Assembly (NCBI GenBank): GCA_900466945.1
Contig: UBNV01000006.1
Location: forward strand, 558,001 to 622,000
DNA length: 64,000 bases
Direction: 5' to 3'
Source: Hyphomicrobiales bacterium
GTDB lineage: Bacteria; Pseudomonadota; Alphaproteobacteria; Rhizobiales; Rhizobiaceae
Made by a program: the position numbers and the translations under genes
Notes under the pieces: generated by a model
The model's database searches: none
What the model was told of the DNA's origin: nothing
The model's input: the letters and a program-made list of their open reading frames with translations, nothing else
Shown here: in pieces, positions 34,495-42,801 of the stretch
Numbering within the stretch: the first letter of the stretch is position 1
How the letters are laid out: every line of letters begins with the position of its first letter

Positions 34495-35748
34495 TCAGGC
34501 CGGCATACCGTCGGATCGGGTTCGTTTCGCGCGCTGCAACCGCCATTCGGCAGCGCCGCAGCCCCAGACGATGCCGAGAACGAGATAGAAGTGGCGCCAG
34601 TGATCCGTGTCGATGACGGCGCCGACCAGCATGTGTCCGATCAACACGATCCAGGCGATCATCAGATAGGGCTGCCAGGGCCTGTCTCGCAACATGTAGC
34701 GAAAGCCCATCGATACGGTCCAGACGATCAGCGTCAGGTAGGAGACGAAGCCGATCCAGCCATAGGACATCAGCGACTTCAGGTAGATGTTGTGTTCGTC
34801 CTCGGGAAAGATTTTGCCGAACATCATCGGTCCGATGCCGAGCGGTTTTTCCATCGCCATCTCGAATCCGAGCTTGTGGCGGGCGAAACGACCGAGATGC
34901 CCACCGTCATAATCCTGCACGAGCTGCGTCCGCGTCTCGAACAGCCCGCGCACCTTCTCGAACTGCAAGGCGACGAGCAGCGCCATGACCATGGCAATGA
35001 CGGCAGTCAGGGACAGGACGAGGATCTTCAGGCGGAACGCATTGGTGCGCTCCTTGAGCAGCATGAGGAACACCAGGGCCATGGCGCAGAAGAGGAAGAG
35101 CCCCCAGGCCGCCCGCGAGAAGGAGAGAAAGACGGCAAAGGAGAGGATTAAGATGCCGAGGATCCGGAGTGGCGATTCCGTCAGCCGGCCCTTGAGCATC
35201 CCGTGCAGCAGATAGAGCATGGGCGCAACGAGGAAGGGGCCAAAGACGTTCGGGTCCTGGAAAGCGCCCATGGCGCGGTCGTAGCGGGTAAAGACCTCCG
35301 AGCCGGGAAAGGCATGGAAATAGCCGAGAATGCCCAGCATGCCGGTAATCATGGCCGCGGCCACCCAGGCCTGGAAGATCAGCTTCAGCCTCTGTGGCCT
35401 GTCTTCGATGACGGCGGCATAGAAGACGGCGGTCAGCGCGAGGAAGATCGAGACGGCAACATAGAGCACCTGGTCTGTGAGAATGGTCGGCAGCACGGTC
35501 AAAGCCAGCAGGCCACCGACATTGAAGATCAGTAGCAGAGCCAGGAGAGGCGCGACCGCGCGGGAGATCTTCAGGCCGAACAGGAACCACAGGGCGACCT
35601 GGCCGACCATCAGCAATTCATACGGGGCCGGCTCCGAGATCACGAAGCCCGACAGAAAGACGCCGAGCGCCATGATCCAGGAGATCATCAGCTGGACGGC
35701 GGCGGCCTGCGGATTGAATGGCCGAATCTGGGCGGCGACCGCGCTCAA
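34495..35748 (-). CDS. O-antigen ligase/polymerase family protein
   Basis: 417 residues and about eleven transmembrane helices. The large periplasmic loop and its conserved stretch EDEHNIYLKSLMSYGWIGFV near residues 315-335 are typical of the WaaL/Wzy (ExoQ-like) superfamily. In this setting it is more likely the polymerase of an exopolysaccharide than a lipopolysaccharide ligase. It overlaps the hexose-phosphate transferase gene by four bases. Confidence 0.9.
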   Translation of the reverse strand: MSAVAAQIRPFNPQAAAVQLMISWIMALGVFLSGFVISEPAPYELLMVGQVALWFLFGLKISRAVAPLLALLLIFNVGGLLALTVLPTILTDQVLYVAVSIFLALTAVFYAAVIEDRPQRLKLIFQAWVAAAMITGMLGILGYFHAFPGSEVFTRYDRAMGAFQDPNVFGPFLVAPMLYLLHGMLKGRLTESPLRILGILILSFAVFLSFSRAAWGLFLFCAMALVFLMLLKERTNAFRLKILVLSLTAVIAMVMALLVALQFEKVRGLFETRTQLVQDYDGGHLGRFARHKLGFEMAMEKPLGIGPMMFGKIFPEDEHNIYLKSLMSYGWIGFVSYLTLIVWTVSMGFRYMLRDRPWQPYLMIAWIVLIGHMLVGAVIDTDHWRHFYLVLGIVWGCGAAEWRLQRAKRTRSDGMPA

Positions 35749-37298
35749 TAGGCGTTTTCCGTGTTTAACAGCTTGATCGGCGTCAGGAACAGGATCTTGA
35801 GGTCGAACAGCAGCGACCAGTTCTCGATGTAGTAGAGATCATAGGCCGTGCGGAACTTGATCTTGTCGTCGGTGTCGATCTCGCCGCGCCAGCCATTGAT
35901 CTGGGCCCATCCGGTGACGCCCGGCTTCACGCGGTGGCGGGCGAAATAGCCCTCGACGATCTCGCCGAAGGTCTTGTCGCGTGTCTGGCCCAGCACGGCA
36001 TGGGGACGCGGGCCGACCAGCGAGAGATCGCCGCGCAGAACATTGAAGATCTGCGGCAACTCGTCGATCGAGGTCTTGCGGATGAAGCGGCCAACGCGCG
36101 TGACGCGCGGATCGTTCTTGGTCACGGCATTCTTCGCCGTGTGGTCGCTCATCTCGGTATACATCGAGCGGAATTTCAGGACGTTGATGACCTCGTTGTT
36201 GAAGCCGTGACGCTTCTGCACGAAGAGGACCGGTCCCTTGGACGTCGTCTTGACGGCGATGGCGGTGGCGATGAACACCGGCCAGAGCAGGACCAGCGCC
36301 AACACGCTAAAGAAGATGTCGAAGGCGCGCTTGGCAACCGAATCCCAGTCCCGGATCGGCTTGTCGAGAATGTCGAGCAGTGGGACTGCGCCGACATGCG
36401 AATAGGCACGCGGGCGGAAGCGCAGATTGTTGGAATGGGCCGCAAGGCGAATGTCGACCGGCAGGACCCAGAGCATCTTCAGAAGCTGCATGATGCGCGC
36501 CTCAGCACTCAGCGGCAGCGCGATGATCATCATGTCGATATGGGCGAGCCGGGCGAATTCCACCAGCTCGGCCACAGTGCCGAGCTTCGGGTAACCGGCA
36601 ACGACATCGGGCGAGCGGGTCGCATTGCGATCGTCGAAGATGCCGCAGATGCGGATGTCGTTTTCCGGCTGCTGTTCCAGTGCCCGAATGAGATCCTTGG
36701 CCGGCTTGCCGCCGCCGACGATAACGGCGCGGCGTTCCATCACGCCGTTGCGTCCCCAGCGGCGGATTGCGAGGCCGATCAGGTTGCGCTCGACGAGCAA
36801 AAACAAAGCGCCGGCCCCGAATAGCACGGCCAGCATGGTGCGGTAGTTCGTGTCATGCGCAACGAATAGCAGGTTGGTCAGCGCGACGAGAGCGACAGAC
36901 GCCGTCCAGCTTCCGAGAACCCGGGCCATGGACCGCATCGGCGAGCGCAGGATGGAGACATGGTAGCAATCGCTCGCCTGCATGAATAGCAGCGCGAGTA
37001 GGGCGCCGGCAATGCCGCTGAGGCCGCTGTCGAGAAAATGGTCGCTTGGATCCAGGGCGAGGAAGAAGTTTGTCGCTAGCGCGATCCCGAGCAGGCTGAA
37101 AAACTCGAGGAAACGAAGCTGGCCGATCACGATGCTCGGCGAGTAGTTGACCACCGCATACTGGCCGGCAATCTGCCGGGCAAGAGCACTGATCTCCGCC
37201 CTTCGTTCCCCGTCGACCTTTTGGGAAGCATCGGCGGTCGTCTGACCGCGACGCAGGGCGTCAAGATCGAATGCCTCGGGTTTGTCGACCTTGTTCAT
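35745..37298 (-). CDS. Undecaprenyl-phosphate hexose phosphotransferase
   Basis: 517 residues. Five hydrophobic helices lead, then a nucleotide-binding-like (CoA_binding_3) part near 190-300 and the C-terminal bacterial sugar transferase domain, with [37 protein letters not shown] and [14 protein letters not shown]. It loads the first sugar-1-phosphate on undecaprenyl phosphate, the initiation step of the locus. Position and architecture match UppE/WcaJ/ExoY-type enzymes. Confidence 0.94.
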
Positions 37299-37340
37299 GG
37301 GCTACTCTCGCACGTGTGTGCGGGGAGACTAACCGCAAGG

Positions 37341-37360
37341 TCCTAAGAAACGCTTTAGGA
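37341..37360. repeat. Inverted repeat TCCTAA-N8-TTAGGA before the transferase gene
   Basis: Perfect 6-bp arms lie 43-62 bases before the 37298 start, between it and the GT4 gene. It may be an operator or an RNA hairpin. Confidence 0.3.
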
Positions 37361-37407
37361 ACCCCTCAGAAACAGGGTGGTCATGTGTCGCTTTGGCACG
37401 GACTGGG

Positions 37408-38550
37408 TCAAATCCGTGCGAGTTGCGCCCTGTAGAGCGTCTCGAGTTCCCGCGCCATGGCGACTGCGGAAAAACGCGAATGGAAGGCATCGGGTACCGG
37501 CATGGTGCGCTTGGACCAATCGGGATCGGTGAGGGCCTTGGCCATTGTGGCGCCGAAGAGATCGGCGCGCCCGGGCTCGATCAGCGCCTCGCTGTCGCTG
37601 CCGAGGATTTCGGGAATGCCGCCGACCCGGGAGGCGATGATCGTCTTGCCGGCAGCAAGGGCTTCGAGCACGATGTAAGGCATGGCTTCTGCGCGCGACG
37701 GCACGACGACGATGTCGGAATGAGCGAAGGCCTGGGCAATCGGCATGGCCGGCCGGAAGTCGATCCGCCGCCCGAGACCCTTCTGCTCAACCATCCGGCG
37801 ATAGTTCTCGAGATCTGGCCCGTCTCCGATGATCAGGCCGCTCAAAGGGCGACCGACCAGCCGCTCTGCTTCGGCGAAGGCGTTGATGAAGACATCCGGA
37901 CCTTTGAGGTCGCGCAGCATGCCGATATAGGCGAAATCCACGCCCTCGGGCCGGACCGGAATGCGCGCGAAGTCCCGTTCGCTGATGCCGTTATAGACGC
38001 GGGTCGCCTCACAGCGCGGCTTGCCGATCTTGGCCTCGTAGGTGCGTCGCTCGTAGTCGCAGACGAAGGAGATCGATTCCGTCATGCGCTCGAGAATGCG
38101 CTCTGCGGCAAAGACCCCCTGGCCGGACAGTGACCTGCTCGAAAAATGCAGGCTGCCGCCATGGGGAGAGTAGAGGCGGGCGACGCGATACCTTCTGACC
38201 CGCAGCAGTGAGCCGATCAATCTTGCGATCACGCCGCCCTTGGCGCCATGACCGTGCAGGATGTCCGGCCGCAATTCCTTGATGAGTTTATAAGCTTCGG
38301 CAAGCGCCGCCATGTCCTTCAGCCCGACGGAGCGGCCGATCGGAAAGCGTGTGACGCCGAGCGAGAGGTAAGGCATGATCTGGTCGAACAGGCGGTCCTC
38401 ATGGGCGCCGCCGGTGGAGCTGTCGCAGAGGATGCCGACCTGATGGCCGGCGGCACTGTGCTGTTCGGCAAGATCGCGTACATGACGGAAGATCCCGCCA
38501 ATGGGCGATCGAAAACAATGGACGATGCGCAGGGGCGGGGCTTCTGCCAT
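37408..38550 (-). CDS. Glycosyltransferase family 4 protein
   Basis: 380 residues. GT-B fold: the N-terminal domain contains GGIFRHVRDLAEQHSAAGHQ, the C-terminal domain VVPSRAEAMPYIVLEALAAG and the following GGIPEILGSD, the GT1-type donor site. It adds a sugar to the growing lipid-linked repeat. It starts three bases after the stop of the export lipoprotein gene. Confidence 0.93.
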   Translation of the reverse strand: MAEAPPLRIVHCFRSPIGGIFRHVRDLAEQHSAAGHQVGILCDSSTGGAHEDRLFDQIMPYLSLGVTRFPIGRSVGLKDMAALAEAYKLIKELRPDILHGHGAKGGVIARLIGSLLRVRRYRVARLYSPHGGSLHFSSRSLSGQGVFAAERILERMTESISFVCDYERRTYEAKIGKPRCEATRVYNGISERDFARIPVRPEGVDFAYIGMLRDLKGPDVFINAFAEAERLVGRPLSGLIIGDGPDLENYRRMVEQKGLGRRIDFRPAMPIAQAFAHSDIVVVPSRAEAMPYIVLEALAAGKTIIASRVGGIPEILGSDSEALIEPGRADLFGATMAKALTDPDWSKRTMPVPDAFHSRFSAVAMARELETLYRAQLARI

Positions 38551-38553
38551 CGA

Positions 38554-39129
38554 TCAGAACAGCCGCTCGCGAACGTAGACGGTGTCTCCCGCGAGGATGG
38601 GATCCGTGATCGGCACGCGGCCCGTGATGATCTGCCCGTTGATCTTACGGGTTACGTCGACATCGCGCTGGTTCGCCCGGCTGTTGAAGCCGCCGGAGAC
38701 CGCAATCGCGTTGAGGATGGTCATGCCCGGCACATAGGCATATTGTCCCGGCTGCCCGACCTGGCCCATGAGGAAGATCGAACGGTAGCGGTCGACTTCG
38801 ATGGAAACGTCGGGATCGCGCAGGAAGCCCTGCTTGAGCTTCTGTGCCAACGCGCCCTCTAGCTGGGTGATGGTGGCACCACGCGCGGCGACCTGGCCGA
38901 CGAGAGGGAAGGCGATGTAGCCGGCCTGGTCGACCGTATAGGTGTTGGTGAGGCTCGGCTGTTCGAACACCGTGACACGCAGGCGGTCGCCGCTGTCCAG
39001 GCGATAGGGCTGAATGGTTGCCTCGTGAAAGACCTTAGGCGCAGGCTTGTAGCTCGCGCAGCCTGTCAGAGCGACTGACAGGAACGCGCTCGCGACCAGA
39101 ACCATCGCCTGTTTGCCGACCATAGCCAT
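38554..39129 (-). CDS. Polysaccharide export outer membrane lipoprotein (Wza/ExoF-like)
   Basis: 191 residues. The lipobox is LTGC near residue 23. The Poly_export domain begins YRLDSGDRLRVTVFEQP and continues with a SLBB-like segment (GQVGQPGQYAYVPGMTILNA). It is short compared with Wza (about 360), with only one SLBB repeat, as in rhizobial ExoF. It forms the outer membrane exit for the polymer. Divergent from the co-polymerase gene. Confidence 0.92.
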   Translation of the reverse strand: MAMVGKQAMVLVASAFLSVALTGCASYKPAPKVFHEATIQPYRLDSGDRLRVTVFEQPSLTNTYTVDQAGYIAFPLVGQVAARGATITQLEGALAQKLKQGFLRDPDVSIEVDRYRSIFLMGQVGQPGQYAYVPGMTILNAIAVSGGFNSRANQRDVDVTRKINGQIITGRVPITDPILAGDTVYVRERLF

Positions 39130-39314
39130 GCGCTGCTGCGCTCCCAGTGAATTCGCATCTTCGTTGGCCTGTTATCGAATGATTAGGGTTAATGCCGGGT
39201 AAACAGCAGGCGGCCGCAGCCTTGATCCAGACGACAAATGCGGATCAGGTGGGATTAACCCTTGAGTTACCATGATCCTTTACCTTCGCGGGCGAGATGT
39301 ACCGGGAGTCTGTA

Positions 39315-41516
39315 ATGTCGAGTGTGGACCGCGATCAACATGATGTCGATATCGACCTCGCCCAGCTCTTTCGCGCCGTCTGGCAGCGAAAGGGGAGGAT
39401 CCTTGCGGCCACGGCTCTCGTCGGCGTGCTCGCCTTCGTCGGCGCGAACGCGATTTCTCCGAGCTACAAGAGCGACGCCAAGCTGCTGATCGAATCGCGC
39501 CAGCCGAATTTCTCGGCCTCCGGGACGGCATCGTCCACGGTCGAACCCATGCCCGACGAGCTGAACATCGCCAGCCAGGTTCAACTGCTCCAGTCGGTCG
39601 ATCTCATTAAGCAGGTCTCCCGTGATCTGAAGCTGCACGAAAGAGCAGAATTCGACCCGGATTCGAGCCCTTCGGCCATGACCGATTTTCTGGTCCTCTT
39701 CGGCCTGACGAAGAATCCGCTCGAACTGCCGCCGGAAGAACGGGTCATCAATGCCTTCAAGGAAAAGCTCAATGTCTACCAGGTCGACAAGTCGCGCGTG
39801 ATCGGCATCGAGTTCACCTCGAAGGATCCGAAGCTCGCGGCAGCAGTGCCGAACGCCATGATGGACGTCTACCGTTCACTGCAAAGCGGCGCCAAGCTCG
39901 ACAGCAATTCCGATGCCGTGCGCTGGCTGGAAACCGAGATCGCCAATCTGCGCGGCAAGGTGAGCGAGGCCGAGCAGAAGGTCGCCGAATATCGCTCCTC
40001 GGCCGGCCTGATGTCTCTCGGCTCCGACCAAAGCTCGTTCAGCGGCAAGCAGCTTTCCGACATTTCGACGGAGCTCGCGAGGGTCCGTGGTGAGCGGGCG
40101 AATGCGGAAGCGACGGCCGAGAACCTGCGGACCAGCATTGAGGCCGGCAAGTCCACCGATACGCTCGACGCGATCGCGCGCTCCGAATCGATCCAGCGCC
40201 TCAAGGCAACGGAATCGCAGATCCGGGGGCAGATTTCCGATCTCTCCACGCGCCTGCTCGAAGGTCACCCGCAGATGAAGGCGCTACGCGCCCAGCTCTC
40301 CGGCATCCGTGAACAGGTCCAGGCCGAATCGTTGCGTGTGGCCGCCAGCCTCGACAACGAGGCGGCTGTGGCCCGGGAACGCGAGACACAACTGCTTGCC
40401 CAGCTGAACACGCTGAAGGCTGATACTGCGCGGTCCGGTGAAGACGAAGTCGGCTTGAAGGCACTGGAACGCGAGGCGACCGCCCAGCGCCAGCTCCTGG
40501 AAACCTATCTCGCGCGCTACCGCGAAGCCTCCTCCCGCCTCGACAAGAATGCGAGCCCGGCCGATGCGCGGGTGATCTCCACCGCGATCGAGCCTCAGGA
40601 GCCGAGCTTCCCAAAGGTCCTGCCGATCACCATCGTCGCCATCTTGTCGACGCTGATCCTCTCGGCGGTGGCTGTCATGCTGGCCGAACTCTTCAGTGGC
40701 CGCGCCCTGCGTCCGACCGGCGCCGTAGCACCCGTCGTCGCGCGCCGCGAGGAAACGGATGGCGCAGAGCTTGTTGCCGCCGAAGCTCCGCAGACGCGGG
40801 CGCAGGACGAAACCCCTGCAAGCCTTCTGAACGTCGCGCCCGATGCGCAACTCGTCGAAGAGATGGAACAGGCGGTGGCTGCGGAACAGGACGCGGAGGC
40901 CACACCGCTTGCGCTAGCCGAGGAGCCGGATGAATTTTCGGTTGCATCCGTGGCCGACTATCTGGAGGAGCAGGGCGCACGGATCGCTTTTGCCATCTCG
41001 CCTTCGGGCGATGACGGCTCAATCGGAACTGTGGCGCTGGCCCGCGAGCTTGCCGATCGCGGCCACCGTACCGTGCTCGTCGACATGACCGGTTCTGCCT
41101 GTCCGAGCCGCATGATGGCCAACTGGAGAGACCTGCCGGGGGTTACCGATCTCCTCACAGGTGAGGCCGCCTTTGCCGATTGCATCCATTCGGACCACTC
41201 TTCCGCGGCCGATATCGTGCCTCAGGGGAATGCAGATATCCGCCAGGCCATGCGCGGCGCGGACAGGCTCTCGATGATCGTCGATGCTCTCGCGGACGTC
41301 TATGACATCGTGCTTGTAGAATGCGGCCCGGCGAATGCCGAGGGTGTCGCGCGGTTGAGCCGCAATGGCCATCACGAGATCATCCTCTCGGCGCCTGAAC
41401 CGCAGGCAGAAGAGCTGGCCGAGATCATGATCGCTTTCGAGGATGTCGGCTACAGGGATTTGGTCCTACTGTCTGTCAATAACCCGTCGGCGCGCCGCTC
41501 TCGCGACGCAGCCTGA
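39315..41516 (+). CDS. Wzz/ExoP-like polysaccharide co-polymerase with degenerate kinase domain
   Basis: 733 residues. Wzz domain at about 10-110 with a transmembrane helix near 33-50, long coiled coils at 190-400, a second helix near 440, and a C-terminal BY-kinase-like domain from about 545. That domain lacks a proper Walker A: SPSGDDGSIGTVALA has no GKS/T; the Walker A' is VLVDMTG and Walker B is VLVECGP. No C-terminal tyrosine cluster is present. It probably controls chain length without kinase activity. ATG 39315 has GGGAG upstream. Confidence 0.93.
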   Translation: MSSVDRDQHDVDIDLAQLFRAVWQRKGRILAATALVGVLAFVGANAISPSYKSDAKLLIESRQPNFSASGTASSTVEPMPDELNIASQVQLLQSVDLIKQVSRDLKLHERAEFDPDSSPSAMTDFLVLFGLTKNPLELPPEERVINAFKEKLNVYQVDKSRVIGIEFTSKDPKLAAAVPNAMMDVYRSLQSGAKLDSNSDAVRWLETEIANLRGKVSEAEQKVAEYRSSAGLMSLGSDQSSFSGKQLSDISTELARVRGERANAEATAENLRTSIEAGKSTDTLDAIARSESIQRLKATESQIRGQISDLSTRLLEGHPQMKALRAQLSGIREQVQAESLRVAASLDNEAAVARERETQLLAQLNTLKADTARSGEDEVGLKALEREATAQRQLLETYLARYREASSRLDKNASPADARVISTAIEPQEPSFPKVLPITIVAILSTLILSAVAVMLAELFSGRALRPTGAVAPVVARREETDGAELVAAEAPQTRAQDETPASLLNVAPDAQLVEEMEQAVAAEQDAEATPLALAEEPDEFSVASVADYLEEQGARIAFAISPSGDDGSIGTVALARELADRGHRTVLVDMTGSACPSRMMANWRDLPGVTDLLTGEAAFADCIHSDHSSAADIVPQGNADIRQAMRGADRLSMIVDALADVYDIVLVECGPANAEGVARLSRNGHHEIILSAPEPQAEELAEIMIAFEDVGYRDLVLLSVNNPSARRSRDAA

Positions 41517-41535
41517 TCACAAGCAAACGGCCTGT

Positions 41536-42801
41536 TCAGACGTCGGATTTCGCCGGCGGCTGCCCGCTCGTTCCCATTGCCCGCCATCTCTGGATCAGTG
41601 CATAGAGATGCGGATTTCCCTTGATCAGGGTTTTTGTTCGCGTCATGCCGCGATGGGTCATCGCCGCCAGCCGGCCAGCCGGCCGGATCGGCAGCAGGAT
41701 GTCATGATGCACTGTCTGGATATTGCACCACCGCCGCTTGTAGTCCTGTTCGCCGATACCGAAGTCGAAAACCGTAGCGCCCGTGAGTGCGCTGCGCTCG
41801 ATCACCAGCCAGAAGAGCAATTCTCCGGGGCTTGCATCAGGCAGCAGGCTGTCGTCGATCGAACCGAACTGGCAGATCACGTGATCGCCCTTGCGGGACA
41901 GGCCGGTGATCGCGGCAATCTTTCCCTCGTATTCGCCCTTAAGGCGGATCGCGTGAAGTTCGAGGGGCACGTCGCTGCCGCCCCTGTCATTCTCGAGCAG
42001 CATGCGGAAGAAGGCCTGGGTCTCTGCCGGCTGAAAGACGTTCGGCAATCCGACGGCCGCGAAACGGGCGGCTTTCTGCTGGAAGAAACATTCGAGCAGG
42101 GCCTGCTGTTCACTCAGTTGTGTGGGTCGGATGTGCTCGTAACCACCGGCGGCCTCCAGTTTGCGGATCTGGGCACGATACTTCTTGCGGCGGCTTTTGG
42201 CATTGAGCGGCGCAATGCTCTCTTCCATGGTGGCGCAAAGTGGCAGCTGGAACGACGGGTTCTGGTTCTGGACATGGGGCAGTGCGGCCAGCGGATGGCG
42301 TTCGCCCCGCCAGGCGAGCGGCACATGGGTCAGGCTGAGCAGGTCCGCGTGATCATGCAGGGCGTCTACAAACAGCATTTCCAGGTCATGCGGCGCGATC
42401 TCGGCGGCGACCTGCCGGAAGGTGGCGCTGAACAAGCCGCTGTTGAAATTCGTGAATGGCGATCCGACCAATTGTGCCCTGCGCAGCAGGAACTGTCGGT
42501 CGATTTCGAGCGGCAGCAGGAAGGCGGTTTGACTGTTGAGCCGGCCTTCGACAATGGCAAGCGGATGGCCATGGGTCTGCACCCAGGCCCGGCACCAGTC
42601 AAAGCTTTGGTGGAGAGAGTTCCACGGATCGGCTTCGAGCTCGCGCCAGCTGGTTTCCAGCGGCTTCATCTGGTGATGGACGTTAAGCGAAAGCCTGCCC
42701 ACCGGAGTATCGAGCCCAGCTCCGCCGTTCACGACGGCAAGGCCGTCTTCGGGCAGATCCTCGGCAACTGCCATTGCATCATGGCGCATCTGGGCTCGCA
42801 T
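41536..42801 (-). CDS. GNAT-type acyltransferase (BioF2/FemAB-like, CelD family)
   Basis: 421 residues. The C-terminal half has the GNAT-type core with LHAIRLKGEYEGKIAAITGL and VFDFGIGEQDYKRRW, seen in proteins that acylate polysaccharides. The N-terminal part carries WNSLHQSFDWCRAW. In a locus with the genes above, it may acetylate the polymer. Convergent with the co-polymerase gene with a 19-base gap. Confidence 0.87.
   Translation of the reverse strand: MRAQMRHDAMAVAEDLPEDGLAVVNGGAGLDTPVGRLSLNVHHQMKPLETSWRELEADPWNSLHQSFDWCRAWVQTHGHPLAIVEGRLNSQTAFLLPLEIDRQFLLRRAQLVGSPFTNFNSGLFSATFRQVAAEIAPHDLEMLFVDALHDHADLLSLTHVPLAWRGERHPLAALPHVQNQNPSFQLPLCATMEESIAPLNAKSRRKKYRAQIRKLEAAGGYEHIRPTQLSEQQALLECFFQQKAARFAAVGLPNVFQPAETQAFFRMLLENDRGGSDVPLELHAIRLKGEYEGKIAAITGLSRKGDHVICQFGSIDDSLLPDASPGELLFWLVIERSALTGATVFDFGIGEQDYKRRWCNIQTVHHDILLPIRPAGRLAAMTHRGMTRTKTLIKGNPHLYALIQRWRAMGTSGQPPAKSDV

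Follow-up and report, generated by a model that had tools for sequence, protein, structure and literature searches.

A conserved uppABCDEF locus in a Rhizobiaceae genome and a candidate flippase encoded outside it

We analyzed a 64,000-nucleotide stretch (the window) from a Hyphomicrobiales bacterium of the family Rhizobiaceae (contig UBNV01000006.1, positions 558,001 to 622,000), in which positions 34495-42801 hold six polysaccharide genes. A first-pass annotation had likened them to the upp genes of Agrobacterium, which make the unipolar polysaccharide (UPP), a sugar polymer by which rhizobia and their relatives stick to surfaces with one end of the cell. Sequence comparison identifies them as the uppABCDEF locus, a typical representative of a familiar and widely conserved type. 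Its product is very probably a UPP-type adhesin made by the Wzx/Wzy route. The flippase would come from a gene elsewhere in the genome, the candidate here being a displaced relative that we call wzx1. While the upp locus itself is well known, the apparent swap of its candidate flippase in one lineage is the new part.

Performing Pfam and NCBIfam profile searches with the window proteins, we found six intact open reading frames (ORFs), five on the minus strand and the co-polymerase gene alone on the plus strand. The outermost, uppA (41536..42801, minus), encodes a FemAB/GNAT-type acyltransferase (Acetyltransf_6) of 421 amino acids (PF13480, 3.1e-25). The divergent uppB (39315..41516, plus) encodes a Wzz/ExoP-type polysaccharide co-polymerase fused to a degenerate bacterial tyrosine kinase (BY-kinase) domain (PF02706, 5.4e-12); it scored 340 bits with TIGR01005, the model of ExoP-type exopolysaccharide transport proteins, which is under the cut-off of 411.7. 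The listed ORF begins at 39297; an alignment of 14 rows (that of the window plus 13 near relatives) has a shared start 18 bases further in, at the ATG of 39315, which a GGGAG box precedes. The OPX outer-membrane export lipoprotein of 191 amino acids is encoded by uppC (38554..39129, minus; PF02563, 7.6e-24, plus SLBB) and carries a lipobox-like LTGC, as judged by eye. A GT4 glycosyltransferase of 380 amino acids follows in uppD (37408..38550, minus; PF00534/PF13439). The product of uppE (35745..37298, minus) is an initiating polyprenyl-phosphate hexose-1-phosphate transferase of 517 amino acids (PF02397 and PF13727) that scored 459 bits with the WcaJ-type model TIGR03023, above the cut-off of 411. 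Overlapping uppE by 4 bases, uppF (34495..35748, minus) encodes a Wzy/O-antigen-ligase-type polymerase of 417 amino acids (PF04932, 1.8e-14). The letters C and E follow published roles, and A, B, D and F were given by position. The six-gene set named in the first-pass annotation was recovered in full, and its remark that the locus has no Wzx was borne out: the profile search gave no flippase family match among the six genes and the two flanking genes (ctaA and a PHB-esterase-like gene).

The gene order agrees with the published one. A section of PMC12727192 describes uppC as a Wza-type OPX protein and uppE as the initiating transferase; in the window, the OPX gene is third and the initiating transferase gene fifth in the row. 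The uppABCDEF genes of A. tumefaciens (Atu1235-1240) and other Rhizobiales show the same gene types, the same third and fifth positions, and no flippase in the locus. The unipolar glucomannan genes of Rhizobium leguminosarum are orthologous to upp, according to a passage of a 2014 review (PMC4018554). Scanning named genomes with UppE, we kept the best 80 of at least 590 confirmed loci, and 70 of these 80 carry the complete six-gene set with order and orientations unchanged. In a second set of 40 family loci picked by UppE similarity, 38 hold all six genes in order (the exceptions are L054 and L061); some genomes are in both sets (e.g. L049/L095, L054/L088). Recurring in 38/40 and 70/80 loci, which were selected by similarity to UppE, the order is not to be put down to chance. 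Moreover, ctaA adjoins uppA in 68 of the 70 complete named-genome loci, over which identity to the window's proteins ranges from 43-76% for uppA, 67-94% for uppC and 58-87% for uppD.

The closest of the 80 named-genome loci is that of Peteryoungia aggregata (L144; 73, 87, 94, 87, 91 and 93% for A to F), a nearness judged at the upp locus only; G107, labelled as the same genus, has a UppE only 65% identical. The A. tumefaciens strain UMA610 (L095; 49, 58, 67, 62, 64 and 66% for A to F) shows the same synteny, its upp genes lying likewise near ctaA, argC and speB. The proposed resemblance to Agrobacterium upp therefore holds in content, order, orientation and chromosomal neighborhood, and the suggested gene-order check yielded synteny with 70 complete loci of the 80, UMA610 among them. 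We also looked at whether the best matches fall in a different exopolysaccharide locus, and they do not. In the family at large, matches are present in 185 of 199 genomes for UppE, 152 for UppA (at 1e-10) and 151 for UppF (at 1e-30).

A missing Wzx does not set this locus apart, since the 2014 review, in its treatment of upp, describes uppABCDEF as a Wzy-type cluster that is incomplete (PMC4018554). The first-pass annotation had advised looking for wzx elsewhere, and doing so gave a candidate, a wzx that in most of the family lies near secA beside a further FemAB-type gene and that has a displaced relative, wzx1, in the window's genome. The window's genome encodes four PF01943 proteins outside the locus. 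One of them, wzx1 (G000:C26:222252-223601), overlaps a FemAB-type gene and passes the Polysacc_synt model PF01943 (40.9 bits; cut-off 28.2). Using wzx1 as query, we found a match in 147 of the 199 family genomes at 1e-20. The wzx of this group occurs in 146 of the 151 UppF-positive genomes vs 1 of the 48 UppF-negative ones (both 146, UppF only 5, wzx only 1, neither 47). Restricting the count to the 185 UppE-positive genomes leaves the same pattern (146, 5, 1 and 33, respectively), as does counting by genus (80, 1, 1 and 27). In 5/5 genera where UppF varies, wzx varies along with it.

We also checked the surroundings of the matched wzx genes in 14 other genomes (15 loci, L220-L234). Three loci stand apart, namely L224 and L226 (42-45% identical to wzx1) and L225 (26%, on a short contig). 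The other 12 genes are 42-81% identical among themselves and 28-32% identical to wzx1. A FemAB-type gene adjoins wzx at all 12 of these main-type loci, and secA is present at 11, the exception being L221 (G107). The order in UMA610 is argJ, prsA, secA, oafA, wzx, femAB; an oafA next to wzx was seen at some of the loci only. UppZ, an OafA-family enzyme, is reported as required for UPP in A. tumefaciens in a section of PMC11340318; it is our guess that UppZ is the secA-linked oafA.

The window's genome departs from the UMA610 order in having this wzx deleted. One part of its secA lies at the end of contig C11 and the other at the start of C13, which makes these contigs probable neighbors; oafA and femAB are open and lie together at the C13 start. 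Aligning the DNA to P. aggregata, we find that the match stops about 75 bases into the wzx of that species and resumes 1,280 bases on, at about the wzx end. Nearly the whole secA-linked wzx is deleted between oafA and femAB, with the neighbors kept. As oafA and femAB are both on C13, the deletion lies inside a contig; a plain assembly gap was rejected on this ground and because 1,280 P. aggregata bases are missing between the two genes.

Of the two flippase types, the window's genome has wzx1 only. P. aggregata, L111 and L160 have both, a secA-linked wzx (67-68% identical to that of G107) and a wzx1 (77-84%). Seven other genomes (L139 R. wuzhouense, L156, L116, L118, L127, L097 and L131) have the secA-linked type only, and for Rhizobium sp. 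AAP43 (L114) the only type is wzx1, its match falling into two pieces. We infer that wzx1 took over from the deleted wzx. A fuller account, to which we give about an even chance, is that the secA-linked Wzx with its FemAB partner is the missing UPP flippase of Rhizobiaceae and that this Peteryoungia-like lineage gained a second Wzx-FemAB pair, which arose there or arrived. Both pairs would have coexisted, as they still do in P. aggregata, before the original wzx was nearly all deleted and oafA and femAB were kept.

Several points weigh against the proposed adhesin pathway and its flippase. The Fisher p-value for the UppF-wzx table ignores phylogeny and overstates significance, since UppA, UppF and wzx share their phylogeny. 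Five UppF-positive genomes (G009, G113, G134, G150 and G191) gave no match to the wzx query and no wzx in the stretches read around their upp genes; G009 and G113 are 99-100% complete. The comparison with Agrobacterium was made with UMA610, which stands in for C58 and for Atu1235-1240. The polymerase label given in the first pass stands in so far as UppF matches PF04932; it is weaker than the other five labels because the same part of the 2014 review states that no homologue of either Wzx or Wzy had been recognized for the cluster in Agrobacterium (PMC4018554). Finally, another Wzx might serve UPP, as two are encoded in an exopolysaccharide cluster on contig C15 and one beside a histidine kinase.

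The last of these (L165) was rejected as the UPP flippase, with a match in just 6 of the 199 genomes at 1e-20. The co-occurrence of wzx with UppF and their co-variation within genera argue against the secA-linked wzx and wzx1 serving some other glycan while a C15 Wzx flips the UPP unit, an arrangement that the two Wzx of that cluster and the near-complete G009 and G113 would allow. Wzx is described as apparently promiscuous, and as redundant, for holdfast in a portion of PMC11340318, which fits the same arrangement; the FemAB partner of wzx, on the other hand, belongs to a family shared with UppA. On balance, we hold a C15 flippase for UPP to be unlikely, though a serious contender.

A separate alternative concerns the product, which could be a general secreted exopolysaccharide or capsule, neither polar nor needed for attachment. 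All six families are also present in ordinary exopolysaccharide clusters, the best models of UppE are generic WcaJ/exopolysaccharide transferases, and polarity is not readable from sequence. This genome, however, has exopolysaccharide genes in a separate cluster: the one on C15 brings an initiating transferase of its own, and its co-polymerase keeps Walker A intact (a further initiating transferase is on C31, among ORFs judged sugar genes by reading). The synteny with UMA610 points the same way, as do the uppC and uppE deletions of Bradyrhizobium ottawaense, which lower root attachment according to a section of PMC12727192. A general exopolysaccharide or capsule is thus improbable. The Caulobacter-type holdfast (hfs) cluster, which is likewise for a polar adhesin and has an HfsE-like transferase and a pseudokinase, HfsB, paralleled by the degenerate kinase of UppB, was rejected as highly implausible: UppE scored 336 bits with the HfsE equivalog NF050817, below half of its 750-bit cut-off, the pseudokinase in the window is fused to the co-polymerase, gene set, number and order are unlike hfsEFGHCBAD as named in excerpts of PMC12727192 and PMC9980756, and the former treats UPP and holdfast as two separate clusters, certain of whose proteins are similar.

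Aligning 120 rows of UppB, of which the incomplete L159 was left out and some genomes are counted twice, we found the Walker A lysine of the kinase-like domain absent in 119/119 copies (Ser 108, Ala 10, Thr 1); where the second aspartate of Walker A' would stand, 114 copies have Thr and 5 have Ser. We take these two residues to be the consensus of an active BY-kinase of the Wzc type; by that measure, UppB does not look like an active BY-kinase co-polymerase. The C15 co-polymerase of the same genome keeps GEGKTT, an intact Walker A. Among 15 control loci, the motif was intact in L163/L175 (the same gene) and L170, and a match in L186 looks like chance; the other 11 showed no motif, partly since the stretches around the Wzz match were short. 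Searching PDB sequences with UppB gave weak matches (PslE, Wzc, MinD-like and other kinase chains; best 3.6e-06). Kinase-like domains without catalytic residues are found in EcpK/EpsV, HfsA/HfsB and the fused Sinorhizobium SMc01795, as in UppB. The UppB pseudokinase is not new in kind, since part of PMC12004946 already cites fused forms for SMc01795 and others. Unlike the known pseudokinase co-polymerases, the upp locus of one Agrobacterium group has the domain as a stand-alone protein.

This group accounts for nine of the 10 incomplete loci among the 80; the tenth (L159) is cut by a contig start inside the co-polymerase gene. The reduced loci (L084, L085 and L087-L093, from Agrobacterium rosae, R. 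skierniewicense, A. cavarae, A. larrymoorei and others) keep only uppE, OPX and the stand-alone kinase-like domain (213-259 amino acids, stop to stop), and no homologue of GT4, Wzy, FemAB or the membrane part of the co-polymerase was detected in the stretches examined. In G017 and G120, of the same genus as this group, UppA, UppF and wzx were undetected. These two share a cluster (L186 and L187; G017:C15 and G120:C51) in which, by eye, a co-polymerase of about 690 amino acids is followed by Wzx- and Wzy-like membrane proteins and glycosyltransferase-like ORFs. No initiating transferase or OPX was recognized by eye within the 20 kb read, and the cluster may draw on the uppE and OPX that remain. 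A different rearrangement is seen in G009 (L320, G009:C11), where upp is split, perhaps by inversion: uppE-uppF lie on one side, and uppA and part of the co-polymerase gene about 13 kb away, beyond rpsI, at the end of the fetched stretch.

Between the divergent uppB and uppC (39130-39296) lies a GGTTAA box (39187..39192, plus), which is present in 70/70 related intergenic regions (shuffled mean 3.0, maximum 8). A facing TTAACC box (39255..39260, plus) has its counterpart in 37 of the 70. In 70/70 relatives, a TTAAC lies 20-120 bases after a GGTTAA (shuffled maximum 3); relatedness is uncorrected in these counts. CtrA was rejected as the regulator: of the motifs that we assume for it, TTAA-N7-TTAA and TTAACCAT were found in 0/71 regions and ATGGTTAA in 3/71.

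The family assignments suggest the following pathway. UppE would load the first sugar phosphate onto the lipid carrier, UppD would attach a further sugar, and UppA would acylate the unit. A Wzx encoded outside the locus would flip the unit over the inner membrane; in most of the family this would be the product of the wzx near secA beside the second FemAB-type gene, whose place the displaced relative wzx1 would take in the window's genome. UppF and UppB would polymerize the unit, and UppC would form the export route. As its kinase-like domain is without the key residues, UppB probably acts without tyrosine phosphorylation.

A role in attachment is likely for this locus by orthology. P. aggregata is named for its frequent rosettes, as a passage of PMC9558580 recounts, and rosettes are the expected result of a polar adhesin, though no proof for the window's strain. 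The candidate flippase gene tracks the upp locus across the family, although the 2014 Agrobacterium review, in its account of the cluster, could name no flippase (PMC4018554). For many root-associated bacteria, UPP is the first means of sticking to roots and surfaces.

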